Positions 8,428-41,767 of a stretch of DNA of 44,737 nt are shown here, in pieces. Position 1 is the first letter of the stretch; each line of letters opens with the position of its first letter. The stretch covers positions 1 through 44,737 of the forward strand of contig CACYHH010000008.1 of the NCBI GenBank assembly GCA_902774115.1, read 5' to 3'. A model generated the notes under the pieces. It saw only the letters and a program-made list of their open reading frames with translations. It was not told where the DNA came from and searched no databases. Made by a program: the position numbers and the translations under genes. This stretch comes from an uncultured Spirochaetales bacterium. Its GTDB lineage: Bacteria > UBP6 > UBA1177.

Positions 8428-11400
8428 ATGAATTTGACCAAAAAAGCATTGTCGCTGCTTATTGCTCTCATTGCTGTGATGATGGCGGTATCATGCACAA
8501 CTGAAAGAAGTGCAGTCGACAAAACAGATGAACTTGCTCTCGACAAAAGGTTGTTCGACGGCGAGTTTTTTGTACGTCAGACCATCGTTGATCTGCCTTA
8601 CACTGCGGACTACGCATTCATAGGCGAATCAAGCAGTGGTAAAGTTATCAAATGGAAAATCACCGAGAATTGGCTCATTGCTTACAGCATTTGGGACAAA
8701 CTCACCGCTGTTGACACCAACGAAATCGTTGACGTCAACGAAACCCCGATCGTTGCTTACCCGATCGCAGCTCACTACGACATCGTTCCGAGTGAGAATC
8801 CGACGACAGGCGAAGCACTTCCCGTTCTCGTTGCAAACACCGACAGACCATGGAATGAAAGACGTTATTTCTCGCTTGCTACAAACTCGATGAGCGGTGT
8901 AACCAACTACGAACTTCAGTACCTCACTCTCACCATCGAATGGGGTGCTCCTTTCTACAAAGCAGGTCTCACGACTGCTACAGATTGGGAATTCTATGCT
9001 CACGACGGCACATTCATTGTTCCGAAGAAGTATCGTGACTACACTGCAATTGCAGACGATGCAGAAAGATACAACAAGGAAGTTGAATGGTTCCAGTTCT
9101 TCTCAACCGAATACTTCGAACCCAACAATGCTGCCTGGTGGGCTGGTTACCAGATCCAAAACATGGACGATATCGATGAGTTCATCGGCAACGAACCGGC
9201 TGCAGTAACCTATCGTTTCGTATTCTCCAAGATCAACAGAGACGTTGTCGGAAAGAGAGATTACGATATCGCTTCCAAGACCTTCAAATGGACTCCCGGT
9301 GCAAAAGACAACGGTTTCAGACCGCTTGAATATCCGGATGAAATGTTCCGTGAATACGGTTTCTTCACCAACAAATTCAAAGGTTACGACAACTATCACG
9401 GATACAGAGAAGACAACTATCACACCCTTGCAAACTACTGGAATATGGCTTGGGCTAACGACAAGAAAGAGTGGAACTTCAAATGCGATGCAGGCGAAGA
9501 CTACAATACCTGTCTGAAGAAAATCAAATATCAGCAGAAGATCGTTTTCACCTCTTCTCCGAAGACTCCTCTCCGCATGCTTCCGGCAAACTGCGCTATC
9601 ACGAAAGACTACAACTACGCTATGCTCGGCGCAAGATTTGCAGCTATGAATCCGGGAAGCGATACCCGTGCTTTCGATGCATGGTATTTTGAAAATTACA
9701 AAGACGACTTCTTCAAGGAAGTTAAGACCGCTGACGGTAAGACTGCGATAGTAAGAGACCTTGAATGGTATACTTCGAACCTCAACGATCCGAACAACCC
9801 GCACAAAAACTGGAGAGAAAAATGCTTTGTTCCTGACAGACAGGCATGGATCCAGAAATGGAACGGTGATTTCATTGATGAAAACACCGACGACGCTCAA
9901 AAAATGAGCGAACTTCTCGAAAAGTATAAAAACGACATCGTCGTTATGGTCGAGAACCCTGTAGAATCTTATGTTCCGGCAAGAGACGGAAAAGCTCTCT
10001 ACGGTTTCGGAAACTACTACAACCTTTCTTCCGACAGCCGTGAAAACGCTGTAAAAGTCTGTGTAAAGAAAGATGAAGCAGACCTTTACGACGAAGAAAA
10101 GGTTATGTACTACACGACCTGCTACACCAATAATGACAAAATGTCTACTCTCTATGTAGACGAGTTCGGTTATCCGGAATGGAGAGGCGACCGCTGGGAC
10201 TGCCAGATCTTCGGCGAAAAAGAAGATTGCCCGGCAGGATACGAAGCAGTAAAGGCAGCATGTGTTCTCACAGAAGAAAGAACATGTGAAGTCGAAGCAG
10301 GTCTCCCTGTTCTCCGTCACAAATATGACAACGGTAACCCGTATGCAGCTCTTATCAACTGGGTCGACAAACCGACAGAATACGGTATTCTCGGTGTTTC
10401 CCAGTGGAACGTAAACCCGGAAACCGGTATGAGCCTGGGCGGCGGTTCGAACATCGCAGGATCAGTTCTTGCATGGGCCAACACCCGCGCTATCGAACTT
10501 GCAAGAGTCCTTATTTCCGAAGACGATCCGGCAGCTTGGGACTGGAAAGAACTCATCAATCCTGATTACTCCAAAACTCCGGAAGTTATCTGGGACACCA
10601 AGGCAAAAGCAAACAAAAAAGATGCTGTAAACACATGGACCAAACCTTACAGCCCGGCTAACCTTATGACTATGGTCAAGGCTTCTTCAAAGGATAAAAC
10701 TCCGGAAGAAAGACTTCAGGACCTCAACCTTGAATATGAACTTAAAACCAGAAATTACGACAGATTCGATTTCTCTTCTCTGGTTGGAAATCCGAAATGG
10801 GAAACCAAGATGGTTCCTTACTCCATCAAAAAGAACCTCTTCCCGTGGATGAATCCGTCAGACAATCCTGCTTACTCAGACGAGCAGAAAGAAATTATGC
10901 GCCCCTGGTTCGTAGGACCGGCAGCTATGGAAGCTGAAATGGTTAAATACCTCAAGGCTAAATCACTTGACTTCGACTTCGACGAATCCTTCATGGATGG
11001 TTCGATAATCCAGTTCATAAAGGAAAAACAGAAAGAAATCCGCAATGAAATGGGTATCAAAGAGGATGAAAACGGCAAAGTAGACTGGAGCAAAGTAGAC
11101 AAGAAAAAATACGAAGATGCTCTTATTTACGCTATCTATGATCCGTTGGAAAAGATGCAGTACAAAGGTGTTGCAGAGCACGAAATGGGTCACACCATGG
11201 GTCTCAGACACAACTTCATCGGTTCGACAGACCAGAGAAACTACGTAGACAACTACTATGCAAGCGAAAATTATCCTGCTATGATGAACGGAATCAAAGA
11301 CCTTCTCATCAAAGAACAGGAAGAAAAAGGCGAAGACTATGATCCCGCAACATTCGGTATCAAGGCTTACAGATACAAAAAAGCTTTCAAAACCGACGTC

Positions 11401-13584
11401 AACTACTACACCTACACTTCTGTAATGGACTACCAGAGAGAAGTTTACATCCATGCAGTAGGTCTTGGAAAATATGACCTTGCCGCTCTCAAGTTCGTTT
11501 ACGGCCGTTCTTTTGAACAAGTCAAAATTGCCGGAGACGCTAAATACGGCGAACTTGTACATCAGGGCGACGCAAGCGATGATTACAAAGGCACTAACAA
11601 GATCCATCCTCTCAGAGACACCGATTCCAAATACAGAGACTATGTAAGAACGAACGAGCAGTACCTTGACGAAAACGGCAAGCTCAAGACTGTTGACATC
11701 CCGACTCAGATCTACACTTACTACGATGAGAACAACAAAAAAGTCGAAAGACTTGCTCCGAAAGTCGGTCTTGGACTTCGTGCTTCATTGAAGATGGATG
11801 AAGACATGAACTATCGTTATGACTACGACTGTGACGACACTCAGGCTGAGTGCACGAAGAACACGACTTACCTTGTCAACGACGGCAGACACTATGAGTA
11901 TCTCTTCATCACTGATGAAAAATCATCCGATGATCCGAGAGCTAACACGTTCGATGCCGGCTTCATGGCTTCCGATGTAATCAGAAGCATGGTTGACATG
12001 GACAACGCTTACTATTTCCTGAGATTCTTCAGAAGAGGTAACCCGAAGTTCAGAGAGTTCCGCGACAGAACATCCATGAAGATGATCTACGACACACTCT
12101 TCGGAAAATACAAATACATCCACTTCATGCTTGATTACAACTTCTATGTTTACGGCAAATGGGCACCTTACATCCTTACCGGCAGCTCGAAATTCGAAGT
12201 TCCGGGCGACAGTACCGATACCAGTGACAAGTTTAAAGTAAACAACTATCTCTTCGACGAATACCAGAGAGCTCTTAACGGCGAGGAATACTGGCTTGAC
12301 GCAGACGGCGAGCTCAGAACACTCACTCCGATGAGCCCGGCAGACTACGTAATCGCAGGTATGGAAGGTGTAAACTACTTCTACTACAACATCATTTACA
12401 GACCTGCTGTCGGCGAATACATGGCTGTAGACAGAGGCGGAAACGATCCTGATATCGACGAAAAACTTGAGGCTAATCAGAATTCCTACTACCAGTCGAC
12501 AGAAAACTACATTGAAGGTTACTCGGAATACATGAACGTAGATACCATTAATGTAGATCCGGTTCTCGGACGTTTCCAGAAAGACCGCTGGGATATTCAG
12601 GACAACGAGAACATCTACTACGACAAAGTCCTGAGAAGAGGCTATGCTGAAGAGAAGATGGTTGCTATCTACGCTATCGCAAACGCTGGATGGTTCGATG
12701 CTAAATACAGAAGAGAAAGCCGTGCAAACGCTGTTGACCAGATGTTCGAAGGTCTTGAGAACGTTAAGTTCACAATGCTTTCCGATGTTGTCGACGAAGA
12801 AGCTCTCTTCACATTCTCTCCGTACTGCTACTCTGCAAAAGAGAACAATATCGTAAAAGTTGATGTTCCGGTCAACATCCTCACCAACTGGGCAATAACT
12901 CCTCCGGCTGCAGAAGACAATGTCAAAGTCTACACCCCGAAGAAGAACCTCTGCTCGCAGATCAAAGGCGATTACGTTCCGGTTCACGCAGGCTGGACTT
13001 ACTTCGACAAGATGTGGCCGATGTACTGGACGATGGGTAACGTTGCGAACACCTCGGCTGATACTTCGGTTCTCCAGAGATTCGTAGCTTACAGAATCAA
13101 TGCTTACGATATCAGCAACTATCCGGAACCCGATGTAAACGAAACCCAGTTCCTCAACAAGGACGGAAACGCTTACTACAGAGCAGTTCTTGCAAAATCG
13201 ACTCTCGATGTTCAGGATCAGAATGCTCTCGTTACGTGGAAAGACTGCAAAGCTGACGGCGACGATGACGCTACATGCCTTGCAAAAGTTAAATTCACGA
13301 AAGACGGTGCTGTAGCAGCCGGCGATCCTGATCTTGAAGGAACTCAGCGTTTCGATTCAAAAGAAGCGTTCTCCAAGTATCTCGCTGACAAATATGCAAG
13401 ACTTTCTCCGTCATTCAGACTTGTCCAGAGCGCAGGTCAGCTCAAAGGATATGAGGATGATTCAATGGCTGAAGGTGCAGAAGGATTCTCAAGACTGGTC
13501 ATCATGGAAACAACGATTGATCAGCTCAACTCCTTCGCAGCTGACAACCTTGGTTTCGCAGTCGAGTACGCATCACGTCACTAG
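8428..13584 (+). CDS. Giant zinc-metalloprotease lipoprotein (HExxHxxGLRHNF)
   Basis: This 1,718-residue lipoprotein has the signal MNLTKKALSLLIALIAVMMAVSC, with lipidated Cys near residue 23. The catalytic zinc site is HEMGHTMGLRH at residues 918-928, in the metzincin-like form HExxHxxGxxH, and SVMDY with Met 1000 fits the Met-turn. The GLRHNF continuation is typical of the large DUF5117/DUF4953-type metalloproteases known from Bacteroidota and other diderms. The protein is rich in Tyr, Asn and Asp, as expected for a secreted surface enzyme, and is roughly twice the size of the usual relatives. The start follows TTAGGAGG. It is co-transcribed with the outer-membrane barrel upstream and ends before a strong terminator. 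It probably sits on the cell surface or in the periplasm and degrades proteins or peptides; the substrate is unknown. Confidence 0.85.
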   Translation: MNLTKKALSLLIALIAVMMAVSCTTERSAVDKTDELALDKRLFDGEFFVRQTIVDLPYTADYAFIGESSSGKVIKWKITENWLIAYSIWDKLTAVDTNEIVDVNETPIVAYPIAAHYDIVPSENPTTGEALPVLVANTDRPWNERRYFSLATNSMSGVTNYELQYLTLTIEWGAPFYKAGLTTATDWEFYAHDGTFIVPKKYRDYTAIADDAERYNKEVEWFQFFSTEYFEPNNAAWWAGYQIQNMDDIDEFIGNEPAAVTYRFVFSKINRDVVGKRDYDIASKTFKWTPGAKDNGFRPLEYPDEMFREYGFFTNKFKGYDNYHGYREDNYHTLANYWNMAWANDKKEWNFKCDAGEDYNTCLKKIKYQQKIVFTSSPKTPLRMLPANCAITKDYNYAMLGARFAAMNPGSDTRAFDAWYFENYKDDFFKEVKTADGKTAIVRDLEWYTSNLNDPNNPHKNWREKCFVPDRQAWIQKWNGDFIDENTDDAQKMSELLEKYKNDIVVMVENPVESYVPARDGKALYGFGNYYNLSSDSRENAVKVCVKKDEADLYDEEKVMYYTTCYTNNDKMSTLYVDEFGYPEWRGDRWDCQIFGEKEDCPAGYEAVKAACVLTEERTCEVEAGLPVLRHKYDNGNPYAALINWVDKPTEYGILGVSQWNVNPETGMSLGGGSNIAGSVLAWANTRAIELARVLISEDDPAAWDWKELINPDYSKTPEVIWDTKAKANKKDAVNTWTKPYSPANLMTMVKASSKDKTPEERLQDLNLEYELKTRNYDRFDFSSLVGNPKWETKMVPYSIKKNLFPWMNPSDNPAYSDEQKEIMRPWFVGPAAMEAEMVKYLKAKSLDFDFDESFMDGSIIQFIKEKQKEIRNEMGIKEDENGKVDWSKVDKKKYEDALIYAIYDPLEKMQYKGVAEHEMGHTMGLRHNFIGSTDQRNYVDNYYASENYPAMMNGIKDLLIKEQEEKGEDYDPATFGIKAYRYKKAFKTDVNYYTYTSVMDYQREVYIHAVGLGKYDLAALKFVYGRSFEQVKIAGDAKYGELVHQGDASDDYKGTNKIHPLRDTDSKYRDYVRTNEQYLDENGKLKTVDIPTQIYTYYDENNKKVERLAPKVGLGLRASLKMDEDMNYRYDYDCDDTQAECTKNTTYLVNDGRHYEYLFITDEKSSDDPRANTFDAGFMASDVIRSMVDMDNAYYFLRFFRRGNPKFREFRDRTSMKMIYDTLFGKYKYIHFMLDYNFYVYGKWAPYILTGSSKFEVPGDSTDTSDKFKVNNYLFDEYQRALNGEEYWLDADGELRTLTPMSPADYVIAGMEGVNYFYYNIIYRPAVGEYMAVDRGGNDPDIDEKLEANQNSYYQSTENYIEGYSEYMNVDTINVDPVLGRFQKDRWDIQDNENIYYDKVLRRGYAEEKMVAIYAIANAGWFDAKYRRESRANAVDQMFEGLENVKFTMLSDVVDEEALFTFSPYCYSAKENNIVKVDVPVNILTNWAITPPAAEDNVKVYTPKKNLCSQIKGDYVPVHAGWTYFDKMWPMYWTMGNVANTSADTSVLQRFVAYRINAYDISNYPEPDVNETQFLNKDGNAYYRAVLAKSTLDVQDQNALVTWKDCKADGDDDATCLAKVKFTKDGAVAAGDPDLEGTQRFDSKEAFSKYLADKYARLSPSFRLVQSAGQLKGYEDDSMAEGAEGFSRLVIMETTIDQLNSFAADNLGFAVEYASRH

Positions 13585-13656: not shown

Positions 13657-13685
13657 TTGACAAAAACAGCGTGCTAACGTAATAT
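13657..13685 (+). promoter_or_regulatory. Near-consensus housekeeping promoter
   Basis: A perfect TTGACA (13657-13662), a 17-base spacer and TATAAT-like TAATAT (13680-13685) lie right after the terminator and 28 bases before the first start codon of the unknown gene cluster. It is one of the clearest promoters in the window and implies strong constitutive expression. Confidence 0.8.
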
Positions 13686-13712
13686 GCCGCGTCTTAACGA
13701 TTGGAGCTGAAC

Positions 13713-14006
13713 TTGGCAACCGGCATAAAATCGCATTTTGAAAGCGGAAATTCGGAAAAGAGCTTTCAGGTGGAAAAAATCGCCACCTTTTTAAAATCCA
13801 AAAAACTCGAACCGGTCTCTTTGATACTGCTTGACATGATGATTCCTTTCAAGAGGCAGATCTCGGCTTTCCTTTCTGTTGCCGAACCTCTCTCTTCCCT
13901 TCTCATCGGTGAGAAAAAAACAGGAAAAATACTCAGCTTTTCCAGCGGAGAAAATTCTTTTGAAGCGTTGAAGGCGGCACTTGAACGGGGTAAAGATGAA
14001 CTCTGA
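13713..14006 (+). CDS. Small conserved-looking protein of the unknown cluster
   Basis: This 97-residue protein has no signal peptide or membrane segment. It consists mainly of helix: VEKIATFLKSKKLEPVSLIL, then LDMMIPFKRQISAFLSVAEP, then a C-terminal SFEALKAALE helix. The start is probably TTG 13713, six bases after GGAG; TTG 13701 is the only longer alternative. It is the first gene after the near-consensus promoter and overlaps the next gene by 11 bases. From memory, the pattern (short helical protein with LEP..L.LLD..IPF) resembles small soluble proteins found beside poorly studied membrane-protein clusters in several uncultured phyla. That is an impression only. Confidence 0.65.
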   Translation: MATGIKSHFESGNSEKSFQVEKIATFLKSKKLEPVSLILLDMMIPFKRQISAFLSVAEPLSSLLIGEKKTGKILSFSSGENSFEALKAALERGKDEL

Positions 14007-15456
14007 GAACTTCACCGTATTCCTCTCGATGCGCAACATCGTAAGAAAGGTCAGAATCGATTTCGACTACTACAACGAAAGCATCTCCGCCGAAACCGAA
14101 GAAAGAACGTTGGAAACAGATGCCGAATTAAAGCGCGAAATAGCGAAATTTTATGAAAAAAGCGGAACGAAATCGGAAAAAACGATACAGCGTATCATCA
14201 TTCCGAAAAGACTTATGAATGCCGCAGTCTTCGGAATAAGCGAAGAGGGCTCGACACGATCCGCAAAAAGGCTCGCATGGTCGAAACTTCTCAATGTAAA
14301 GCAGGCATACTCGGCTTCCGACGCATTTTCGACAATCGATCTGACCGACATAGATTATATAATAATTGCAGGCGGTTACGACAATTCTATAAACAACAGG
14401 CTCAACAGCATGATCGTCTCTCTCGGCAAGAATCCGCAGCTTCTCGAAATCAAACCTGACATTATTTTCGCGGGGAGCCGCCTTTCGTTGGAAACGGCGC
14501 GCAAGGAACTTGCCAAACCCGGGATACGCTTTTCAGCACAGCCGAACGTGCTTGAAAACAACCGCTATACCGCTGCAGACGAAGAACTTCTCCAGCAGAA
14601 CAGCATTTCAACGCTCCAGCAGATGACGCTTTGGGACGAAATCGAAGACGTGAAGATAAACGACATCGCTTATACAGAAGCTCTCCGCAAGATTTCCGAC
14701 GTTTTCTGCATGAAACGCTCAGAAACCGTTCTTTCCGCCCTCTTTACAGACGACTATTCGCTTCTAAGCCACGCCGAACGCGGTGCAGGCACCACTTTGT
14801 TCAGAAACTACGCCGTTCCTCAGGAAGCGGGGACTCTGACAACTGAGGTTTTCGAATCGGTTTTCAACGATCTTCTGATCGAAAAACAGACAGTTTTTGA
14901 CGAAAATTTTCAGCAGAAAAACGTACTTGCCATAGACGACTCGGTAGAAAACATCCTTTTCGAACCCGACAGAATAATCGGAGTGGCTCTGACCGGCAAA
15001 ATCGATTTCGAAACCTTTCTCAGATTCGTCTCCATTCCCGGCGTAACACACGGAACGATCTACTTCCTCTTTGACGATCTGGGGGTAATTCTCGCCGGAA
15101 TGACGATGTTTATGCAGGGAAAAGGGGGCAACAACTCGTTTCTCAGAGGATTTTTCAACACTGCCGACATAAAAAACGGCTGGATATTCATACCTTACGG
15201 CAGATTCAGAAAAGGGGCTCCGGCAATTTTTATAGAAAAACTCGAAAATGACAGAAAAGAGGATATCGTGCTCCGGTGGGGCGAATACCGCGTTTTCGAA
15301 ATAAATCCCGATTCGGTAGTCGAAATCCACACTGCGAAAGGAGTCTACATGACCAAAAACGACCCTGAAAGCAACAAGAAGACAATAGGTACGAAAAAAA
15401 GCAGAAAGACGCTGATTTTCGACCTTCGGGAAGAGATGCACAAATGGAAACGGTGA
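13996..15456 (+). CDS. Unknown protein, possible distant MutL/GlmL-like (ASKHA) fold
   Basis: This 486-residue soluble protein was not recognised with confidence. Features seen: DLTDIDYIIIAGGYDNS near residues 120-135, a nucleotide-fold-like strand and turn; EPDRIIGVALTGKIDFETFL followed by a hydrophobic strand and MQGKGG; and a C-terminal beta-rich part ending KTLIFDLREEM. The order (internal 'IIAGGYDN', late 'GVALTGK', C-terminal small beta-barrel) is reminiscent of the glutamate mutase accessory protein MutL/GlmL family, which has an actin-like fold. No canonical ATP motif is plain, so this is weak inference. ATG 13996 follows GGGGTAAAG and gives an 11-base overlap with the previous gene; the next gene starts 13 bases before the stop. 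Coupled translation suggests a stable complex. Confidence 0.65.
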   Translation: MNSENFTVFLSMRNIVRKVRIDFDYYNESISAETEERTLETDAELKREIAKFYEKSGTKSEKTIQRIIIPKRLMNAAVFGISEEGSTRSAKRLAWSKLLNVKQAYSASDAFSTIDLTDIDYIIIAGGYDNSINNRLNSMIVSLGKNPQLLEIKPDIIFAGSRLSLETARKELAKPGIRFSAQPNVLENNRYTAADEELLQQNSISTLQQMTLWDEIEDVKINDIAYTEALRKISDVFCMKRSETVLSALFTDDYSLLSHAERGAGTTLFRNYAVPQEAGTLTTEVFESVFNDLLIEKQTVFDENFQQKNVLAIDDSVENILFEPDRIIGVALTGKIDFETFLRFVSIPGVTHGTIYFLFDDLGVILAGMTMFMQGKGGNNSFLRGFFNTADIKNGWIFIPYGRFRKGAPAIFIEKLENDRKEDIVLRWGEYRVFEINPDSVVEIHTAKGVYMTKNDPESNKKTIGTKKSRKTLIFDLREEMHKWKR

Positions 15457-16175
15457 TCGATTTTAAAATATTTTCGCTTTTCGCGATATTCATGGTTTCT
15501 CTTATCCTTCCGAATATTTTCGTAAAAAAATTCCCGTCGAAACTCTCGAGAGAGACGATGCTCCTGCTTCAATTCATAAAAACGATGATAGACGAGGACA
15601 GCGGTAGAATCGCGGTCAACAGCTCGATCGATTCCAAGGCTCATCCGCTCTTTTCGGCTGCCGCGAGATTCATAGACGAAATCCTGAAGGAAAGTGATGC
15701 TGGCAACAGCGTAAGAACGACGATTCCCGAAGAGTTCGGCGTTATCGCGACACACAGTGCCGAAAACGCGTCCATCCTTTTCACGCCGCTTTCAAACGCG
15801 AACAACACTTTCTACACGACCATCGAGAAGCGTGAAATGAACGCATCGCTGATCCTCAATATTTCCGACGGTTCCGCAATATCCGACTGGGATGCCTACA
15901 ATTCCGATTCCGACAAAAAACGGATCGCGCTCTCCTGTTCGATAGAAGGACTTCTGATCGACGCTATAAACTCCAAAAAGTGCCTGATTTCGCTCGAACC
16001 TTTCCTGATGAACGCCCAGATAAAGAAGCTGAAAAATAAGCGTACCCTCGAAACTTCCGGTGTTTATCTGTTTCTGGCAATAGTCGCAGCTGCGATACTT
16101 TCGCTTTCGCTGTGCAAAACTCTGGCACCCTACTACCCTTTTTTAGATAATCTCCTGAAAACGGTGGCAGAATGA
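15444..16175 (+). CDS. Membrane-anchored protein of the unknown cluster
   Basis: This 243-residue protein has membrane segments near both ends (about residues 8-25 and 205-230) and a soluble domain of about 170 residues between them. The core is notably well ordered: PEEFGVIATHSAENASILF, then FYTTIEKREMNASLILNISD, then CSIEGLLIDAINS. This resembles, from memory, the layout of DUF6754-type proteins (membrane helix, SAEN-like motif, GLLIDA-like helix), but the match is not certain. The start overlaps the upstream gene, and the stop overlaps the next start in ATGA. No catalytic motif was identified. Confidence 0.7.
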   Translation: METVIDFKIFSLFAIFMVSLILPNIFVKKFPSKLSRETMLLLQFIKTMIDEDSGRIAVNSSIDSKAHPLFSAAARFIDEILKESDAGNSVRTTIPEEFGVIATHSAENASILFTPLSNANNTFYTTIEKREMNASLILNISDGSAISDWDAYNSDSDKKRIALSCSIEGLLIDAINSKKCLISLEPFLMNAQIKKLKNKRTLETSGVYLFLAIVAAAILSLSLCKTLAPYYPFLDNLLKTVAE

Positions 16176-17680
16176 AGCTGAAGATAATCCTCATATCGGT
16201 ATTTATCTGCATCGTCGCCGTTTTCGTCATGATTTCGCTCGGTATCGAAAGCGTTTTTCTGACAAAGGCGGTACGCTGGACTGAGATCGTCATCGTTCTT
16301 TCGTTTTTCGCCGGTCTCGTAAAATTTCTGACAAGAGAGTTTTTTTCGGTAAAATCTTCCTTCCGTGCACTGAAAGAGTCGTTTTCTTCGCAGAAAACCG
16401 CTTCAGTCATCAAAGACGTACTCTCATCTTCGGCTGAAAACGCAAAAAAGACAAAACTTCCAGGCATAAACGCGGCTCAGCACAGCAGGGAAGAGAAATC
16501 GCGTCTGTTCAGCAAGCTCTTGAATTCACTTATCATTCTTCTATCGGCCATAGCGACTTTCACTCTCGGCTTCACAAATCCGGATCAAAGCCGCTACACT
16601 TTTGAAAACATCGTCCGTGAACAGCCAGATTTCCTTACCGAAACAGCCCTCGTTTTCATCGAAAGCGATCTCTACCTTTCGAAATTTCCTTCGAAAAAAA
16701 AGCTGGCTCTCTATATTTCAGCCGATGTTTCGACCGATTTTTTCCCTTCTGAGGAAATGCTCAAAAACGCCGATATAACGCTTCAGAACTATCAGAAACT
16801 CCTTGCCGAAAACAAAATCACGCCTCCTTCCGCAGATCCGTCCGATCCCGGAATAACATTCATAAATCCGAACGACATGAAGCGCGTCAAAAATATAAAA
16901 GAGAAAGTAAAATCCGCCTCCATCGAAATAATTTCCGATATGTTCCCGATCTCTCAGGAGCTCAAGGAATGGTTCGACACTTCGATCGCATCACTCAAGC
17001 CTAACGAACTCAGATTCGGTCTTGAAGCTGGCGAAAAGAACCGTTTCGAAGACTTCAAATACGGCGGAATAAAAATAGACGGCAGCGGAACCGAGCTCGA
17101 AACATGGATCACCAAGGAAAAGGAACTGCTGCGCGCGAAATCGGAAAAACTAAGCAACGAGATGTTCAGATACAACAACTTTCTTACAAACAGCGGCATC
17201 ACCGGAATGGCTGCCGAAAGGCTTGCCGTCACGGGATCATCCACTCTTCCGCCGGAAAGCAAAAAAAGAATAGCGGAGAAATTCCTCGAAACAGGAATCA
17301 CGACAAGTCCTGAAATAAAAGGCTTTATCCGCTGGATCTACCGCTACATCTTCGACCCTCTGCTTTCCTCATTCGTCGCACTGCTTCTGCTCAATATGCT
17401 TTCCACTGTCTACAGCCGTTTTTCATTGAGAACCTACTCATACTGCGTGATAACGGTTGCTTTCGTTCTGACTTTGATCGGTCTCACGGAACAGTACTGG
17501 CTTTTCACACAGGATTTTATTTATGACTGGAACGGTCCGCTCTCGCCGGGCTGGATAATGAACATTCTTGCAGTTCCCGTATTCAAAGCTCTTGCTATAG
17601 GAACGGCAAGCGGTCTTCTGTTCTTCACTGCCGAGAATTTCTACACGACTTTTTTTGCAGGTCCGGGAGATAAAAAATGA
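16172..17680 (+). CDS. Polytopic membrane protein of the unknown cluster
   Basis: This 502-residue protein has about three membrane helices at the N-terminus (roughly 4-24, 36-53, 112-130) and three at the C-terminus (roughly 388-408, 415-440, 458-490). They flank a soluble domain of about 230 residues rich in Lys, Glu and Ser. This could be a docking or gating component with a large domain on one side of the inner membrane. No known transporter motif was recognised. It is coupled by ATGA overlaps to both neighbours. Confidence 0.7.
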   Translation: MKLKIILISVFICIVAVFVMISLGIESVFLTKAVRWTEIVIVLSFFAGLVKFLTREFFSVKSSFRALKESFSSQKTASVIKDVLSSSAENAKKTKLPGINAAQHSREEKSRLFSKLLNSLIILLSAIATFTLGFTNPDQSRYTFENIVREQPDFLTETALVFIESDLYLSKFPSKKKLALYISADVSTDFFPSEEMLKNADITLQNYQKLLAENKITPPSADPSDPGITFINPNDMKRVKNIKEKVKSASIEIISDMFPISQELKEWFDTSIASLKPNELRFGLEAGEKNRFEDFKYGGIKIDGSGTELETWITKEKELLRAKSEKLSNEMFRYNNFLTNSGITGMAAERLAVTGSSTLPPESKKRIAEKFLETGITTSPEIKGFIRWIYRYIFDPLLSSFVALLLLNMLSTVYSRFSLRTYSYCVITVAFVLTLIGLTEQYWLFTQDFIYDWNGPLSPGWIMNILAVPVFKALAIGTASGLLFFTAENFYTTFFAGPGDKK

Positions 17681-18567
17681 GGAATTTTTTCGATAACATC
17701 TCGGCAAGCATAGCAAAAATACCGCAATGGGGTCTGATATTCCCTATTCTTGTTCTCATGCTTTTCCACTACTTCGTGGTCTTCGACAGAAACAAAAACG
17801 AAGAAAAATACAAACTTAGCGCGGCTCCGACAGAAACAGAAATGAAGGTTTTCCAAATAATAAACACGCTGCCGCACAATTCAAAAGTCCTTATTCTTGT
17901 GAACTACGGTCCCGAATCCAAATACGAACTTGAATCGGCAATGTCGGCACTGATCGGAGTCTTAGCCGAGAAAAACATCGGGATCGCCTTCGCGACAATG
18001 ATTCCTAACGGTGTGGAATCAGCTTTCACAGCAGTCGAAAAAAGCATAGAAAACGGAAGTTTCGGCAAAGAACGCTTCGTTTACGGTCACGAATACACAC
18101 ATTTGGGATTCATCGTCGGCGGCAATATCGCTACATACCTGATAGCAAACAACTTCGATCAGGTCAAAGAGCGAGACATTTTCGACAGCAGCACCGACAT
18201 CCACCAGCCGCTGATGAGCGAAATCGGCACCATTTCCGATTTTTCGGCGGTTTTCGAGTTTTCATCTCAGACTTTCGACGGCGTTCCCGGCATAGTCTCG
18301 TTTGCCGTCATGCAGAAAGACAAAAACGTGAAAAAAGTCGCCTTCTGCTCGTCTGACATGCTTTCGGCATATATCCCCTTCAGAGGATCGCTCTACCTTG
18401 ACGGACTTATCGGAGGTTTCAAGTCGATCGCAGTCTTTATCCATGAATTCCAGCCGTCTTTGAATATAGAAAAACAGTATAACATCATGTCGACGATCCT
18501 GTTTTATATAATCTGGCTCGTTATATTTTCGAACTTGATAAAACTTACAAGAAAAAACAAAAAATGA
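17677..18567 (+). CDS. Membrane-anchored alpha/beta protein of the unknown cluster
   Basis: This 296-residue protein has a membrane helix at about 19-37 and another near the C-terminus (about 270-290). The domain between looks like an alternating alpha/beta fold: VLILVNYGPESKYELESAMSA, IGIAFATMIPNG, RFVYGHEYTHLGFIVGGN, and DLGG-like turns further on. The 'YG.EY..LGF..GG' segment followed by a SDFSAVFEFSS strand and a SMLSAYIPF-like region recalls a conserved protein I associate with the same type of gene cluster in other uncultured bacteria; no name is certain. Both ends overlap neighbouring genes by ATGA. Confidence 0.7.
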   Translation: MRNFFDNISASIAKIPQWGLIFPILVLMLFHYFVVFDRNKNEEKYKLSAAPTETEMKVFQIINTLPHNSKVLILVNYGPESKYELESAMSALIGVLAEKNIGIAFATMIPNGVESAFTAVEKSIENGSFGKERFVYGHEYTHLGFIVGGNIATYLIANNFDQVKERDIFDSSTDIHQPLMSEIGTISDFSAVFEFSSQTFDGVPGIVSFAVMQKDKNVKKVAFCSSDMLSAYIPFRGSLYLDGLIGGFKSIAVFIHEFQPSLNIEKQYNIMSTILFYIIWLVIFSNLIKLTRKNKK

Positions 18568-19208
18568 ATATTTTCAATGATATAGGAACTATAACGGCTT
18601 TAGTGCTGACCCTTGCGGTATTTTCGGGATTTTTTAAGCCCAATCCGCTTTACCGCATTGCGGAATCACTGTTCATCGGCGTTTCTGCCGGTTATTTCGC
18701 GGTTATATGGTATTTTTCGATAATCAAACCGGCATACAAATCGGCTGTCAGCGGGGATCTTCTCATTCTGATACCGCTTATTGCCGGTTTACTGCTGTTT
18801 ATCCCGTCGAACAGCGAAGCAGCCTATTCAAAACTGAGGTTTCTTCCGGCGGCATTCATCGTCATCGTCACCACGGCGATCAACATTCCGGTCTATTTTT
18901 CGGCGTTCATTCAGGAAATGATACGCTCTTCGATAATTCCTCTGGTTTCATTTGACGAAAACGGCGCTCTCCGGATTGACATGACGATAAACGCGATACT
19001 CAGCGTCGTATGTATAACTTCGGCAATAATGTTTCTGGTCGCACGTCACAGGAACAACAACCGTTTTATAAACACAACGGGCGAAATAGGAAGATTCTTC
19101 ATATTAGTTGCAATAGGTTCGGCTTTTGCTTATACTCTGCTCTCGAGGCTTATTCTTTTTATGGGTAAGATTGAGTTTATTATGAATGCAGTCAGAATCG
19201 TATTTTAA
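18564..19208 (+). CDS. Six-helix integral membrane protein of the unknown cluster
   Basis: This 214-residue protein is almost entirely hydrophobic, with about six membrane helices (roughly 5-23, 35-53, 63-80, 92-118, 138-158, 172-198). Short polar stretches include FFKPNPLYRIAESLFIGVSA near the first loop. No transporter or enzyme motif was recognised. It is the last of six overlapping genes and is followed after 23 bases by the S41 protease gene. Confidence 0.7.
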   Translation: MNIFNDIGTITALVLTLAVFSGFFKPNPLYRIAESLFIGVSAGYFAVIWYFSIIKPAYKSAVSGDLLILIPLIAGLLLFIPSNSEAAYSKLRFLPAAFIVIVTTAINIPVYFSAFIQEMIRSSIIPLVSFDENGALRIDMTINAILSVVCITSAIMFLVARHRNNNRFINTTGEIGRFFILVAIGSAFAYTLLSRLILFMGKIEFIMNAVRIVF

Positions 19209-19231
19209 AAAATAAAGATAAAGGGGTAAAA

Positions 19232-22138
19232 ATGAAGAAGAAATTGGCGATCGTGATCGTTTTGTTTCTGGCGTTCGTTCTCAATGCCAGCTTTTTCGGG
19301 CACAATTCATTGCTCACAAAAGATGCATCGCTGCAAAAAGGGGAAATAACGGTTTTCGCCCTCAAAACCGCCGAAAAACGTTATCTCGACAAATCGAAAA
19401 TTAAAGTTGCAGACCTTCTGACTTACGCTCTGGATGCCGTTCAGGATTCGCTTCCTGAAACGCTGATTTCCTATGATAAAGAGAAAAAGATAATAAATCT
19501 GCAGATTTACAATAAAAAACACGTTATAAAAATAAAAACTCTGCGCGATGTCGTAGACGTGGCTTACGCTTTGAGATCGGTCTATATTCACCTTGACAAA
19601 GAGTACGAGCCCGAACCTCCGCTTACGAAGGACGAAATCGAATACATCGCGATAAACGGAATCCTCAAGAAACTTGACCCGCATTCCTACATTTTCACTC
19701 CGAAGGATTTCGAAGATTTCGAAAAATCGACAGGAGGCAACTTCGGCGGTCTCGGTATCGTGGTTGGCATGAACGACAACGGCGAAATCACCGTCATTTC
19801 CCCGATGAAAGGAACTCCTGCGACAAAAGCGGGTATCGAGGCAAACGACGTCATCGTCCAGATCGACGACACTTCGGCTGTAAACCTCACTCTCGACAAA
19901 GCTGTCAGCAAAATGAGAGGCGAACCGGGAACCCCGATAACACTTATGATAAGGCGTGAAGGAGTGCCTGAACTTCTCAAATTCGAAATCGTTCGCGCCG
20001 TCATCAAAATCACGTCGGTTCTTGCTGCAATGCCTCAGCCAGGAATCGGATACATCAACCTTTCCGGATTTATGGAAAACACCTACTCCACCCTTATCGA
20101 AGAACTCGACGGACTCAAAAAGAAGGGAATGAAAGCCCTCGTTCTCGATATGCGCAACAACTCCGGCGGACTTCTTTCGCAGGCAATAGCGATAAGCGAC
20201 ATTTTCCTCGACAAAGGCGTAATCGTCTCCACAGTCGAAGACGATGAAGAGATCGAATCCAACTATGCCAAGAAAAAACGCGGCGATATCCTCGATATTC
20301 CTGTAATCGTGATGATAAACGAAGGTTCCGCTTCGGCAACGGAAATCGTTACGGCGGCACTCAAAAAGAACGGCAGAGCTACAGTCCTCGGCAGAAAGAG
20401 CTTCGGAAAAGGAAGCGTACAGACAATAATCGGGACTCCGGGCGGCGGCGGAATGAAGCTCACTATTGCAGAGTATCTCACTCCCGGAAACATTTCGATC
20501 CAGTCGGTCGGCATCACGCCTGACATCGAGACACGTCCGGTTTTCATCCATCCCGACAAAATTTCGGTCTTCGATTCGGGTGAAAACATTCTGAAGGAAG
20601 GCGACCTTGAAGAGCACATCGTCAGCAAATACGCACCGAAAACTATCGAGAGACCGAGCACGACGATCCGTTATTTCAAGGAGTACAAAGACGTCAAAAC
20701 GATAATCAAAGAGCGCCGCGAACAGAAGGATGACGAGTTCAGAAGCGACGAAGAGATCGAAATTGCTGTCAAAATCGCCAATCAGATGACCCGGAAGAAA
20801 AAAGCTTACGAAAGTTCGCAGCTGATAAAGGACGAAGAGTGGAAGAAGATCCTCGCGAAACTGCATGAAAACGGCATAAACTGGAAGGAAAAGACTTCTC
20901 TCGCAAAGCCGAAAACCGACACTTTGAAGGTCACGATGGAAAGCGACGGAAAATTCAAAGGGGGCGAAACGGCAAAATTCACGTTCAAAGCCGAAATCGA
21001 AGGCGAAATCGAAAATCTTCTCGGCGTTTTTGAAACCCCGATCAAGAATCTCAGACGGATCGAAATTCCTTTCGGCACTTTCAGCGGCTCGGTCGAACGA
21101 ACCGTCAACGTCAAACTTCCCGAATCGGTGCAGTGGCAGAAAACCGACGGAACGATGAAACTTTATCTCAACGAACCCGAGAAGAAAAAAGAGATAAAAA
21201 CCGAAAAATTCACAGTCGAAACAATTCCTGTCGAGCAGCCTGACCTTAAATTCGCAATTCTGGCAGCGGAAACGAACGGAAACCGCGACGGCTTCATCCA
21301 AAGCGGAGAATCGGCTGAACTCACACTCATGATAACGAATAAAGGCAAAGGTGCCGTCCTCGAAGGAAAGGCGATGCTGATAAACACTAACGACACCGAA
21401 GAGATCTTTATCGAAAACGGAACCAGCTCGTTCACGCTCGAACCCGGAAAATCGATGAACGCCAAATTCACCTTCAAAACCGAAGTTCCGGCTAAAAAAG
21501 AGGATTTGGCGAAACAGAAACTTTCCCTTTCGGTCTACGATTACAAGCTGAAATACAGCGCGGATTTCGATATTCCGTTTGCTGATGCGGCAAAGTGCAC
21601 TTTTGAAGAGACCAAGTCGAAAATAAACCTGCCGAAAGGAACAGAACTTTTCAGCGCTTCAGACCTTGCGACAAAAATCGGTTCGGTATCTGAGAGCGGA
21701 AACACAGAAACGGCAGGGAAATGCGGCGGCGCGATGCTTCTTGCAGGAGGTTTCTGGGTAAAGGCCGAAAACACGGCTCCGGCAGAAGGAAAAGCGGAAC
21801 TTAAAATCGACAACGAATATCCGATGAGTATGCCGGAAATCGTTTTCGACAAAACACCTCTCACAACCGATCAGAAAACGACTAAAATAGAATTCGAGAT
21901 CAATCCTGAAGAAGTCAAGGATGCGTTCGTATTCCTCAACGGAAAGAAAGTTTTCTACAAAAGGATAGAAAAAGGCGAAAAAACGGAAAAGATCGGCGTT
22001 GACGTCGAAATGAAGAAAAAATACAACCGCATTTCCGTTGCCGTCACCGGACCCAATGCGAAAACCAGGACTGTTTCAAAGTTCGTAACCTTCACAAAAG
22101 GCGAAGACAAGAACGAAGAAGACGACTACGACGATTAG
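19232..22138 (+). CDS. PDZ/S41 C-terminal processing protease with long C-terminal extension
   Basis: This 968-residue protein has an N-terminal signal/anchor, a region of about 110 residues, then a PDZ domain (about 165-260; [24 protein letters not shown]) and an S41 tail-specific protease domain (about 265-430). The catalytic Ser 368 lies in NEGSASATE and Lys 393 in SFGKGSVQ, exactly 25 residues apart as in E. coli Prc. GGLL appears in the active site region. Beyond about 550 a further 400 residues form beta-sandwich-like segments with no protease motif (for example [24 protein letters not shown]-like). Normal CtpA/Prc are about 400-680 residues, so the extension is unusual. It acts outside the cytoplasm, cleaving C-termini. 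Its start follows AAGGGG, 23 bases after the membrane protein cluster, with no terminator between. Confidence 0.9.
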
Positions 22139-22238: not shown

Positions 22239-24026
22239 ATGAAAAAACATTTGATCGCACTACTCACGGCGTTAGCTTTCTGCTGCTTCTTCGCAGCATG
22301 CGGCAGTGATGATGAAGAGCCGCAGGACACTAACGATACGGAGGCTGACACTTCCGCCGACACGAATCCGGACTCCACGGATTCAGACACTTCAGACACA
22401 ACCGTTCCTGACACAGACACAGATACGGGAGATCCTGATACGGAACCGACAGATACAGACCCTGACACCGAAGAGCCTGTAGAAACCTGCATGTGCGGAC
22501 CCGATAATCAGGATGACGACGGCGACGGAATATTGAACGGCGTTGAAGGCTGCGAAGACCTTGACGGCGATTCGCTTCCGAACTGCATCGACAGCGACAG
22601 CGACGGCGACGGTATTCCGGATAATCAGGAATGTCCTGAGCAGCCGTGCAGAGACACCGACGGTGACGGCACTCCCGATTTCCTTGACAGAGACAGCGAC
22701 AACGACGGTCTTTCCGACAAAAAAGAGAAAGAAAAGGGTACAGACCCGCTCAGCCATGATACTGACGGCGACGGCGACGATGACCTTGCAGAGATAGCTT
22801 ACGGTTCGAATCCGCTTGACGACGGCGATCATATTCCTGAAGGTCTTTTCTACGTCGTTCTTCCCTACAACGCTCCGGCAGACGTAACGAGAAAACTTAC
22901 TTTCTCGACGAAGATCGAAGCAATCGACGTTGCGATTTTCTTTGATGATTCGGGCTCGATGGGCGATGAGATCAACAAACTCAAAGAGGAAGTCAAAGAC
23001 AATGTTGTCGGCGCAATCGCAAACCAGTTTGCAGACAATCCTAACTACGCCTCTTTCGGTCTTGTAAGATTCGGCTGGGAAAAACCATACATCGTTGAGC
23101 AGACAATGACTTACGATGCAGATGCTGTTAAAAACGCTATCGGAAACTTGAAAGGCGACCAGGGCAACGAGCTTGCAATTTACGCGATTTACCTTGCTGC
23201 AACCGGCGAGGCTTACACAGGAAGTATGCTTCCGTGTGCAATGAACCAGTGCAAAGATCCTCTCCTTGGCGTTATGCACAGCGCAAAATACAACGTTGCA
23301 AAAGCTGACTGCTCGGCTGCCGACAAAATCGGAACTGCCGGTGCACTCTGCATAAGAAAGAAATCAATGCCTATTTTCGTCGTAATCACAGACGAAGATT
23401 CCGACGACTGCGTTCCCTACGGCTCGCAGACAACTCTCAGCACTTCCTGCATGTTTGATCAAGGAACAAAAGAACTTTCAAAAGACCTTGCAATCGCCGG
23501 AATGAACGGAATCGGTGCAAAATTCATCGGAATCGACTCAGGATTCAACGATGAAGGCAAAAAAACAGATTCAGCAAAAGAATGGTTTACCGGTTTCGCA
23601 CAGGCCACAGGTTCTCTTGACGCAAACGGCAATCCCTTCCTTTATCACACTGAACAGGCTGACGGAACAGGAATCGGCGGAAACATTACTGAAGCAATCA
23701 AACAGCTTACAACCTGGATCGACATGGATGTTACCACAGGCGGAATCAGCGATGACGAGTGCAACGGCGTAAATGCTGCCGAGTTCGTAAAATCATCGAA
23801 AGCACTTTCGTCCGATCCTGACACTATTGAACACAACGATACGACATTCTTCTCAGTTCCGCAGAATGCCGAAGTTACATTCGACGTCCACTTCTACAAC
23901 GATTTCTGCGTCAACTCATCAAATACATTCCTTAAATTTGACGCTCACGCAACGGTTCTCGGAAACGGTTCATACCTTTCCAGCCACCTGATCAACGTCA
24001 TCGTTCCTGAAGGATCGACGAAATAA
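22239..24026 (+). CDS. TSP3-repeat / VWA-domain lipoprotein
   Basis: This 595-residue surface lipoprotein has the signal [21 protein letters not shown], with lipidated Cys near residue 21. A Thr/Asp/Pro linker of about 65 residues follows, then five or so thrombospondin-type-3 calcium-binding motifs (about 85-200; [50 protein letters not shown]). A VWA-like domain comes next (about 225-500) with a complete MIDAS start D236-x-S238-x-S240 (DDSGSMG). A C-terminal beta domain ends VNVIVPEG-like. Several Cys pairs are present, as expected outside the cytoplasm. Such proteins in Myxococcota-like bacteria probably bind ligands or calcium at the surface. It is a single gene with its own AAGGAGG site and TATAAT box. 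Confidence 0.85.
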
Positions 24027-24197: not shown

Positions 24198-24273
24198 TGG
24201 AGCTACCGAGGTGACTCGAACACCCGACCTGCTGATTACGAATCAGCTGCTCTACCGACTGAGCCACGGTAGC
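24198..24273 (-). tRNA. tRNA-Thr (anticodon CGT)
   Basis: The minus strand folds into a perfect cloverleaf: acceptor GCTACCG/CGGTAGC, D-arm GCTC/GAGC with AGTCGGTA loop, anticodon arm GCTGA-TTCGTAA-TCAGC (anticodon CGT, reading ACG) and T-arm with TTCGAGT. Discriminator T and an encoded CCA (24198-24200) follow. The body is 73 bases, 24201-24273. Confidence 0.96.
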
Positions 24274-25451: not shown

Positions 25452-27986
<2,535 letters not shown>

Positions 27987-27995
27987 GAGGGAAAA

Positions 27996-30527
27996 ATGGA
28001 CGAATTGATACACGGCAAAATTAAAGATATCGCGATTGAACACTCCATGAAAACGGCGTTCATCGACTATGCGATGAGCGTCATCACTGACCGTTCTCTC
28101 CCCGATGTCAGAGACGGTCTGAAACCTGTTCACCGCAGGGTCCTCTTCGCGATGAAGGAACTCGGAAACACCTACAACGCGGCTTACAAGAAGTCTGCGA
28201 GGATCGTCGGCGACGTCATCGGTAAATACCATCCGCACGGCGACCAGGCTGTCTACCAGACTTTGGTCAGAATGGCTCAGGATTTCTCGATGCGCTACAC
28301 CCTTGTTGACGGACAGGGCAACTTCGGCTCGGTCGACGGCGACGGCGCGGCTGCAATGAGGTACACCGAGGCAAGAATGGCGAAGATCGCAGGCGAGATC
28401 ATGGCCGATCTCGACAAGGACACCGTCAATATGCGCGACAACTACGACGGCAGTTTGCAGGAACCAGAAGTCATGCCGACTAAAATTCCGGAACTTCTTG
28501 TCAACGGAACAAGCGGTATCGCAGTCGGTATGGCAAGCAACATTCCGCCGCACAATATCACCGAAGCTGTAAACGCGACGATCCACCTTATCGACAATCC
28601 CGATGCCGACATTCCCGAACTTATGGAATTCATCACCGGCCCCGACTTCCCGACAGGCGGCTCGATCCTCGGCAAAGCGGGCATCAGAGCGGCTTACGAA
28701 ACGGGTAAAGGAATCATCAAGATCCGCTCGAAAGCGACAATAGAACTCGGCCAGAACGGCGCACGCGACCGCATAATCATCCACGAGATCCCTTATCAGG
28801 TAAACAAAGCGAACATGATCATCCAGATTGCCGAACTCGTTAAGGAAAAGAAACTCGAAGGAATCCACGACATCCGCGACGAGTCGGGAAGACGCGAAAA
28901 AATCAGAGTCGTCATCGAACTCAAGAAGGACGCAGACCCGAACATTCTGCTCAACCAGCTTTTCAAAATGACGCAGCTTCAGGTCTCCTTCGGCATCAAC
29001 ATGCTCGCAATCTGCAACGGAATCCCGAAGACGATAAATCTGAAAGACGCGCTCCACTACTTCATCCTCCACAGAAAGGATGTCGTAACAAGAAGAACGC
29101 GCTACGAACTTGCCGAAGCTGAAAAACGCGCCCACATTCTGGAAGGTCTGAAAATCGCGATCGACAACATTGACGAAGTTGTCCACATCATCAGATCGTC
29201 CGCTTCAACAGATGACGCGAGAATCAATTTGATGGACAGATTCGGTCTTTCGAAGCTGCAGGCAAACGCCATCTTAGACATGAAACTGAGCAGACTCACA
29301 GGACTTGAAAGAGACAAGATCATCGCCGAACTCGAAGAACTCTACAAGAAGATCGAATGGTACAAGGAGATCCTTGCGAACGAAAGCGTTCTTTTCGGCG
29401 TAATCAAGGACGAACTCAGGGAAATCAAGGAGAAATACGGCGACGAGAGAAAGACCGACATCGTCAACTACGACGGCGACATCGACATCGAAGACCTTAT
29501 CGCAGACGACGACATGGTTGTCACCCTCACGACCGAAAACTACATCAAACGCACTCCGCTTGACCTCTACCGCAAGCAGAAACGCGGAGGCAAAGGCATC
29601 AACGCGATAAATCCGAAGGAAAACGACTACGTCAAGAACATTTTCGTAGCAAGCAGCCACACGCTTCTCCTTCTCTTCACTTCCTACGGCAAAGTTTACT
29701 GGATCAAGGTCCACCAGCTTCCGGAAGCGGCAAGAAACAGCAGAGGCAAACCGATAATCAACCTCGTCAACATCGAAAAGGACGAGAAAATCGCGGCAGT
29801 TCTTCCTATCAAAGAGTTCGTTGACGGCGAATTCATCATGATGGGAACCAAAAACGGAACCGTCAAGAAGACCGACATCATGGAATACAAGACTCAGCGC
29901 ACGAACGGCAAGAAGGCGATCAAACTCAATGAAGGCGACGAGCTTATCGAAGTCAAGATCACGAAAGGAAACGACGATGTCGTTCTCGCAACGAAGAAAG
30001 GCCTCAGCATCCGCTTCAACGAAAACGATGTCAGAGCGATGGGCCGTGTCGCAGCAGGTGTCCGCGGTATCAGGATCAACAGCGATGATGAAGTCGTCAC
30101 GATGGATGTCATCGAAGAAGGAACGACGCTCCTTTCGATCACAGACAAAGGTATCGGAAAACGTACTCCGGTTGAAGATTACAGACTTCAGTCGAGAGGC
30201 GGCAAAGGTATCATCACCATCAAGACTTCCGAAGAAAACGGATACGTTGTCGGCGTTCTCAAAGTCAACCAGAACGACGAGGCAATGCTCATCACATCGA
30301 ACGGTCAGGCAATCAGAATCCCGGTCAGCGGAATCAGCGTAATCGGCAGGAATACAAAAGGCGTCCGTCTCTTCAAAGTCGAAAACGGCGAACTTGTCGT
30401 TTCAGTCACCAAAATCATCGATCCCGAAGACCTTCAGGTCGAATCAGGCGACATAAACGAACTTCTTGAAAATCCGAACGAACCTCAGCCTGACGAGCCG
30501 GAAGAATCCGACAATTCTGAAGAATAA
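27996..30527 (+). CDS. gyrA: DNA gyrase subunit A
   Basis: This 843-residue DNA-cutting and DNA-wrapping subunit has the catalytic Tyr 123 in MRYTEARM. The winged-helix region has VHRRVLFAM and [19 protein letters not shown]. The C-terminal beta-pinwheel carries the GyrA box QKRGGKG, and a second RGGKG repeat, then an acidic tail; together these mark gyrase rather than topoisomerase IV. In the quinolone-interacting helix the residues equivalent to E. coli Ser83 and Asp87 are Gln 84 and Gln 88 ([10 protein letters not shown]), an unusual pair. GGAGG precedes the ATG, 9 bases after gyrB. A hairpin terminator follows the stop. Confidence 0.98.
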
Positions 30528-33600: not shown

Positions 33601-33728
33601 TTGATTTCTTTCGAAACCTGTTCGACATAATCGCTTTCATTGTTTTCATTGTGCGATTTCTTTTTGCTGCACGAAACCGCAAAAAGAACACATACAAAAA
33701 TAAGAACCAGACTTAAAAACCGTTTCAT
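30618..33728 (-). CDS. DUF1566-repeat surface lipoprotein with ZU5-like and AGDPIM regions (paralog A)
   Basis: This 1,036-residue lipoprotein has the signal MKRFLSLVLIFVCVLFAVSC (lipidated Cys 20). A ZU5-like domain follows (about 45-245; EEGGTV, IPGGALDGDTTITMTI). It is interrupted by seven copies of AGDPIM before its closing GHFTEYTF strand. An acidic linker rich in TDDDEP (about 245-290), a four-Cys module (CTG..C...CP...GQDA...C) and about five DUF1566 (Lcl C-terminal-like) units come next, each with W..A..YC, then W(R/S)(L/M/I)P and a late FWTS-like strand. DUF1566 is a lectin-like extracellular fold, so binding of sugars or host/cell surfaces is likely but unproved. The start follows AGGAGG. 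It is the last gene of the minus-strand array. Relative to paralogs B and C its sequence is the most diverged. Confidence 0.85.
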   Translation of the reverse strand: MKRFLSLVLIFVCVLFAVSCSKKKSHNENNESDYVEQVSKEIKAEEGGTVESSDGKTSVEIPGGALDGDTTITMTIRDASEYSDKKGKIVSKVVNFEPNGTIFKKPVLISMVVEEGFEKKIVAAAVYNEKEGMWSYSENGERAVLGRDEAGDPIMMGVSSAGDPIMLGVNSDGALTAAGDPIMNSAAGDPIMLAAAGDPIMGAAAGDPIMNSAAGDPIMMTTGHFTEYTFIIIDPKEPEENDDDEPAETDDDEPVEETDDDEPTAETDDDEPADDDIIPEPETLYSKVVCTGSRTCFGEDGKPLDVCPENGAMSGQDAGYIFRKSCLPKSFEKIAKAEDDLTPYQQIKDNNTGLTWILTTESGQSYDDIAPYCEETLAEYAGGGWRMPTPAEILTIADHDMFNNLESGKQIKSAYFTVDWEGSQSFWTSDKNFAYDTYTGRIVSTEQSGYNGLLCVKGEKYGEVAASDYTSKNENGEEMIFDSKTNLFWQKTSVNGKTWKDALAYCESLEYAGHDDWRLPNKNELATLVDYSKSNPASSFPGMTAELFVTSTTVMNIGEVTIDMKTGLTGMRSESGEYSVICVRSDLTAYPENGIPECGEDGYAPCKAGNITWSQRLYYDAFESESVHWATVARDCREMKGGKWRLPNIDEIRTLFTDDVFKTGGSCGVTAAHNTYEYYEGCNTDTLAGNETKLRDYGTLLAGTLSNANPDYERDQWNAWVIDMTTGGMEDVSTVYAPYVIARCVLDDSITFPSFPYTDTENGLVWSSISKKGTWEEAVEYCGTLVEGGSDNWSIPSKEQLFTLVKDCADGSCTPDFSGKYSVFSDIAALLSSDLNDMGGGVTTLDFIDVYDDNIEIYSHFYNWESEIQARCVRLTEDPLENPDKLDEEEDFPYARGGLLWSKKSELVYSLSEAEAYCSSLNDAEYGYEQYADYGIYWTLPAVYYYLDVLVDEDSDCSSQCYESIELENGDTYDCSCGKLFKSHSIFNDFGHFWTSDTDETENIPYLFNFTTGEVTGGNPYSDNSGYVRCVANLQV
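32895..33020 (-). repeat. Acidic TDDDEP linker repeat, paralog A
   Basis: About four repeats of ETDDDEP, at DNA level GTCATCGTCTGTTTC-type units on the plus strand. Near-identical tandem units could change copy number by slippage. Confidence 0.7.
33072..33282 (-). repeat. AGDPIM repeat array, paralog A (7 copies)
   Basis: Seven AGDPIM copies, mostly spaced by nine residues (27 bases), with two wider spacings. The repeats sit between the penultimate and last strand of the ZU5-like domain. Confidence 0.8.
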
Positions 33729-33747
33729 TGAAACCTCCTGCCATAAT

Positions 33748-37002: not shown

Positions 37003-37038
37003 AAGAACCTCCTATAAAAAAAACCTAAATTTTAAATC

Positions 37039-40158: not shown

Positions 40159-40182
40159 AAGAACCTCCTATAAAAAATCTGA

Positions 40183-41724: not shown

Positions 41725-41758
41725 TGAACAACCCTCCGTGTTTTTATTCCCCCATCAT

Positions 41759-41767
41759 GTAGAGACG
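41759..41767. repeat. GTAGAGACG element (half copy)
   Basis: Same 9-base head as the palindromes at 24048 and 30552, here without an obvious second arm. It sits in the 43-base gap before the DUF1703 gene. Confidence 0.35.

Follow-up and report, generated by a model that had tools for sequence, protein, structure and literature searches.

The window, the 44,737-nucleotide stretch of DNA that was analyzed, comes from a 2.5 Mb rumen genome of the candidate phylum UBP6. It contains six genes, here called A through F, that lie on the + strand between positions 13713 and 19208. Upstream from gene A is a sigma-70-type promoter (TTGACA-17-TAATAT; 13657..13685, + strand), with the -35 at 13657-13662, the -10 at 13680-13685, and a spacer of 17 bases. 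Gene A starts with TTG at 13713, with GGAG ahead of the start codon. Each gene overlaps the next, by 11 bases (A/B), 13 bases (B/C), and 4 bases (C/D, D/E, and E/F), and the overlaps are evidence of coupling only. The gene for a long S41 protease begins 23 bases after F. A preliminary description of this DNA gave the same promoter, genes, overlaps and spacing, and all of its coordinates were correct. It also took the overlaps as a sign of fixed stoichiometry, a step further than the coupling that they indicate. We found the -35/-10 pair aligned upstream from A in nine relatives, one of which (L049) has TAAGAT.

Gene A (13713..14006, +) encodes a soluble, amphipathic helical protein of 97 amino acids, and gene B (13996..15456, +) a soluble protein of 486 amino acids. 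The product of gene C (15444..16175, +; 243 amino acids) has a transmembrane (TM) segment, an alpha/beta domain predicted to be cytoplasmic, and a second TM segment. That of gene D (16172..17680, +; 502 amino acids) has approximately six TM helices and a 258-residue loop predicted to be periplasmic. Gene E (17677..18567, +; 296 amino acids) resembles C in layout, with a TM segment, a six-strand alpha/beta domain, here predicted to be periplasmic, and a TM segment. Gene F (18564..19208, +) encodes a polytopic membrane protein of 214 amino acids with approximately six helices. Hydropathy agreed with the topologies in the preliminary description. There was a single hydropathy peak in B (residues 355-373) and one in E (91-109), each inside a part predicted to be soluble. 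When the window proteins were scanned with Pfam, NCBIfam and PADLOC, only the S41 protease scored above cut-off, and none of 10 proteins matched a PADLOC anti-phage defence model. A match of D to the CT214 inclusion protein (20.7 bits, cut-off 90) was attributed to chance, as were the weak ILEI, GARS_A and similar matches.

Several other features of the window were recorded. Upstream from the promoter, at 8428-13584, is a gene for a 1718-amino acid protein with a match to DUF4953 (Met-zincin); relatives in the genus also have a long open reading frame there. Downstream from the S41 gene are a gene for a predicted lipoprotein with TSP3 repeats, a VWA-like domain and a weak match to CglD (22239-24026), a tRNA-Thr (CGT) on the minus strand (24198-24273), overlapped by short open reading frames that are probably spurious, and gyrB- and gyrA-type genes side by side (25527-30527). 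Four large Lcl_C-domain proteins, three of them with an N-terminal ZU5-like match, are encoded on the minus strand at 30618-44179; this run is interrupted by an AAA-ATPase_like/PDDEXK_9 gene.

We found that genes A through F behave as a unit. The UBP6 genomes in our set represent four families, f1 (that of the window) to f4. The order A-B-C-D-E-F-S41 was constant across the genus of the window and three other genera of f1, and loci from f2 had the same order except for an additional gene that separates B from C. Purifying selection acts on each of the seven genes, with dN/dS (NG86) of 0.05-0.18 relative to L045 and 0.07-0.13 relative to L052. Because all seven genes are real by this measure and their order is kept across the f1 genera, the arrangement is far beyond chance. 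Among the named relatives of F are UBP6_UBA1177, UBP6_UBA1196, UBP6_UBA1209 and many ruminant-gut assemblies, and these place the genome in UBP6. F was detected in 18 of the 24 UBP6 genomes that were at least 80% complete. In f3 the six genes are missing together. That is, A through F are one operon, acquired or lost all together, and the grouping of the six genes that was seen in the single sequence holds up in its relatives. Their products probably form one membrane complex.

The S41 gene (19232..22138, +) encodes a long periplasmic protease of the Prc/CtpA type (Pfam Peptidase_S41, 5e-50; PDZ, 5e-12) that resembles MXAN_5808. Its match to TIGR03900 (4.9e-180) is nearly full length, residues 42-938 to 11-956, and at 600.7 bits falls just under the cut-off of 660.95; its context is specific to UBP6. 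We searched 28 UBP6 genomes, some of which lack A through F, and every one had the protease, although in two incomplete assemblies there were only fragments or the short paralogue. In the other f1 genera and in f2, a PilZ gene lies just upstream from A and is preceded by an OmpA-type gene. In f3, the order is OmpA-type, PilZ, S41, without A through F, and in L171 only 11 bases separate PilZ from S41. Since S41 is in every UBP6 genome that was searched, and PilZ and S41 are adjacent where the block is missing, S41 is separate from the block: it is a co-oriented neighbor of A through F and not a part of the unit. The preliminary description had listed the protease along with the six genes; the unit is A through F alone.

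These findings bear on the idea that the operon and S41 make up a dedicated machine for protein processing or sorting, in which A through F would gather exported proteins and S41 would cleave their C-termini. S41 does lie directly downstream from F in the f1 and f2 loci with a complete cassette, either overlapping F or separated from it by tens of bases. However, the long S41 directly follows PilZ in UBP6 families that lack the cassette, and among the clustered neighbors of the related loci outside f1 and f2 (below) there was no recurrent S41; in L020 a rhomboid protease follows the cluster. We consider such a machine improbable.

The genes related to A through F in more distant genomes pointed to the probable identity of the operon. 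In UBP6 f4 (L020/L060) and in L021, from another phylum, E and F end a cluster that opens with a MutL-family protein (PF13941; E-values of 5e-124 and 2e-131), a 376-amino acid protein without a Pfam match (here called X376), and a DUF6754 protein. We refer to this arrangement, A - MutL-like ATPase - X376 - DUF6754 - D - E - F, as the parent cluster. We compared profiles built only from UBP6 sequences to profiles from loci outside f1 and f2, using hhalign. The matches were one-to-one and in the same gene order: A to A (8.3e-8), B to MutL (2.1e-5), D to D (2.2e-15), E to E (1.6e-31), and F to F (6.2e-40). The match of B covered 457 columns, from 11-493 of B to 27-612 of MutL, which is full length. 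An iterative HMM search that began with A reached the small proteins next to MutL in L080, L076, L071, L020 and L021, and A probably corresponds to the small protein encoded ahead of MutL in the parent cluster. For D and E, topology and an AlphaFold model, respectively, were used in addition to the profiles, and for F its presence across UBP6. Apart from C-E, the remaining off-diagonal pairs had E-values of at least 0.011; paralogy of D and F, with a score of 0.037, had no support.

Gene C required longer homologues. The first C profile matched DUF6754 at 0.0027 and E at 0.0017. Long homologues of C, from other UBP6 genera, matched DUF6754 at 1.8e-4 over 326 columns, with E the next best at 0.0046. 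This relation is end to end and takes in an N-terminal FN3-like part, a TM segment, the alpha/beta domain and a TM segment. The FN3-like part is present in the other f1 genera and gone from the genus of the window. Based on the profile, the topology and the position in the cluster, gene C appears to be a divergent DUF6754 homologue without its N-terminal FN3-like domain. The preliminary description had likened some of the genes to DUF6754-like clusters of other uncultured phyla, and the link to DUF6754 was well founded.

The matches of C to DUF6754 and of B to MutL are weak in absolute terms, and C and B are the weakest members of the proposed identity. B scored 14.1 bits against Pfam MutL (PF13941; cut-off 27). 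PF20539 (DUF6754) gave no match in protein C, and neither it nor MutL gave a match above cut-off anywhere in the genome of the window. These low scores would be expected if A through F were a lineage-specific complex that resembles the parent cluster in B and C by chance. Against this, A, D, E and F clearly match the parent profiles, in order, and B and C occupy the MutL and DUF6754 positions with end-to-end matches to those families. In the window, the quartet C(DUF6754)-D-E-F is contiguous and in the parent order, with A and the MutL-family protein B upstream, as in the parent cluster. We regard chance resemblance as very unlikely, and have high confidence that A through F are the UBP6 version of the parent cluster.

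The parent cluster is widespread. We read it in UBP6 f4, Zixibacteria, Acidobacteria, Planctomycetota and Eisenbacteria. We sampled 386 bacterial genomes around UBP6, the majority of them belonging to other families, and 101 had DUF6754; a search of 14 model genomes gave none. We inspected 40 further loci, most from distinct families. The DUF6754-D-E-F quartet was contiguous in 34 of these, MutL-X376 was present in 15, and the full septet in nine. Many of the parent loci had no X376 adjoining, which means that this protein is not a defining feature of the quartet. Many Zixibacteria (L064, L065, L068, L072, L077 and L086) had two or three quartets in tandem. Where the region was covered (e.g. 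L065 and L072), these lie next to a single MutL-X376 pair, as could be the case if one ATPase served several modules. The cluster is also retained in a genome of 0.9 Mb (G218, locus L138; 98% complete), with A between X376 and DUF6754. There was no recurrent metabolic partner among the clustered neighbors of the parent loci. A recurrent 147-amino acid membrane protein without a Pfam match adjoins the cluster in nine parent loci (L134, 14182-14625, and eight others).

The six genes had been described as being of unknown function. They do not represent six orphan families: B is a degenerate MutL/GlmL-like protein, and genes corresponding to A, D, E and F occur in that order in several phyla. It does hold that no described function was found: the parent cluster is known only as database families, and we found no papers naming DUF6754, PF13941, PF20539 or TIGR01319 in a literature search that covered subscription journals thinly.

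The UBP6 version is alike to the parent cluster in six of the seven genes, their order, and membrane layout. It differs in having no X376, a MutL without an ATP site, a large loop in D, and far-diverged sequences, and in the loss of the FN3-like part of C in the window's genus. The phosphate-binding motifs DCGSTTTKA and DIGGATTD were absent from B of the window and from the seven other f1 and f2 sequences compared. B retains the MutL outline from end to end, and the GGYD and IIFAGS segments remain. The sequence of B predicts an actin fold, and B is a putative pseudo-ATPase that has lost its ATP-binding motifs. X376 was absent from the genome of the window, from f1, and from all UBP6 genomes except G026. 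The extra gene between B and C in one f2 locus (L022) encodes 299 amino acids and matched only X376 (0.0011; all others >0.1); it is probably a remnant of X376. In a tree, the f1 and f2 members form one clade with support of 0.999 and a long stem, and the intact f4 cluster falls outside that clade in this tree, which has long branches; the reduced form may derive from the f4 cluster or have arisen by another route. As judged from these sequences, A through F in f1 and f2 are a fast-evolving, reduced version of the parent cluster.

The loss of the ATP motifs and of X376, and the clean absence of the set from f3, could also mean that the cassette has no present function, being either a selfish element or in decay. 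The dN/dS values (0.05-0.18), the conserved promoter and the constant gene order throughout the genus argue against this, and we think it highly unlikely.

Predicted structures gave some indication of how the membrane proteins are related. The AlphaFold model of E (pLDDT 84.5, pTM 0.80) has a TM segment, the six-strand alpha/beta domain, and a TM segment. The model of a DUF6754 protein (pLDDT 80.9, pTM 0.59) has a signal peptide, FN3, a TM segment, an alpha/beta domain, and a TM segment. The order of strands and helices is common to the two models. Together with the weak C-E profile scores, this is suggestive of paralogy between E and DUF6754; a direct comparison of the two aligned only 36 columns. 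Judging by how charges are distributed, the DUF6754/C domain is on the inside and that of E on the outside, clearly for the parent E and less so for E of the window. In a Foldseek search of E against the PDB nothing scored below 1e-3, and the matches were generic Rossmann-like folds, including weak ones to transhydrogenase domain III. The top matches of the DUF6754 model were mostly FN3 domains.

It is possible that the complex is an envelope transporter, with D and F as the translocation path, the E and C domains binding substrate on either side, and the ATPase as the original source of energy. D and F are polytopic, the alpha/beta domains are predicted to be on opposite faces, and the E fold is Rossmann-like with its weak transhydrogenase matches. 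Two or three Zixibacteria quartets per MutL-X376 pair would be expected if substrate modules share an energizer. On the other hand, none of the A through F proteins matched a transporter family, in line with the preliminary description; no recurrent metabolic neighbor points to a substrate; and the ATPase motifs are lost in the UBP6 version. Overall we view transport as a rather unlikely function.

We think it somewhat probable that, taken as a whole, A through F are the UBP6 version of the MutL-DUF6754 cluster and work as an inner-membrane complex, and most likely one that is no longer run by its own ATPase. How such a complex would be built can be sketched only tentatively, and the following scheme may well be wrong in its particulars. 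D and F would form the membrane core. The alpha/beta domain of C would be on the cytoplasmic side, with the similarly laid out domain of E in the periplasm, to which D would add its large loop. In the parent, the domain of DUF6754 that faces the cytoplasm would seat the MutL ATPase, X376 as an adaptor, and the small protein A, and the energy of ATP hydrolysis by MutL would be passed across the membrane as a change of conformation. In the UBP6 lineage, A and B would keep a scaffold role at most. Because the A-B module has no ATP site, the complex in f1 and f2 would be passive or driven by something else. In related genera the neighbors include OmpA-type and PilZ genes and the gene for a periplasmic processing protease, which is a weak hint of a function in the cell envelope.

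Two known systems offer comparisons. GlmL/MutL (TIGR01319, NF040745) is an accessory protein of B12-dependent methylaspartate mutase. The parent MutL matched GlmL at 9.9e-72, under the equivalog cut-off, and is a member of the wider family. B has the outline of the family in common, with the GG(Y/I)D and IIFAGS/VIYAGN segments, but both phosphate motifs are missing. In contrast to GlmL, the cluster is membrane-bound, and no mutase was seen within it. PilM and GspL are actin-fold membrane scaffolds, that is, cytoplasmic partners in inner-membrane complexes, some without ATPase activity. B may be analogous, as a cytoplasmic actin-fold protein in an inner-membrane complex, although no partner families of PilM or GspL were matched.

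Our results connect a divergent operon of UBP6 to a family of clusters whose marker domain is in approximately one quarter of a broad genome sample, even in a 0.9 Mb genome, and for which we found no function in the literature. The UBP6 version is a natural experiment on the workings of the machine: the ATP site and X376 were dispensable, and E, F and the membrane part of D were kept. Similarly diverged genes elsewhere may pass wrongly for orphans. It is conceivable, if short of probable, that the parent is an undescribed inner-membrane machine driven by a GlmL-like actin-fold ATPase, with related alpha/beta domains on both faces of the membrane, of which UBP6 made an ATP-independent form. The UBP6 form is a variant of an uncharacterized parent, and that parent could itself represent a novel type of machine.
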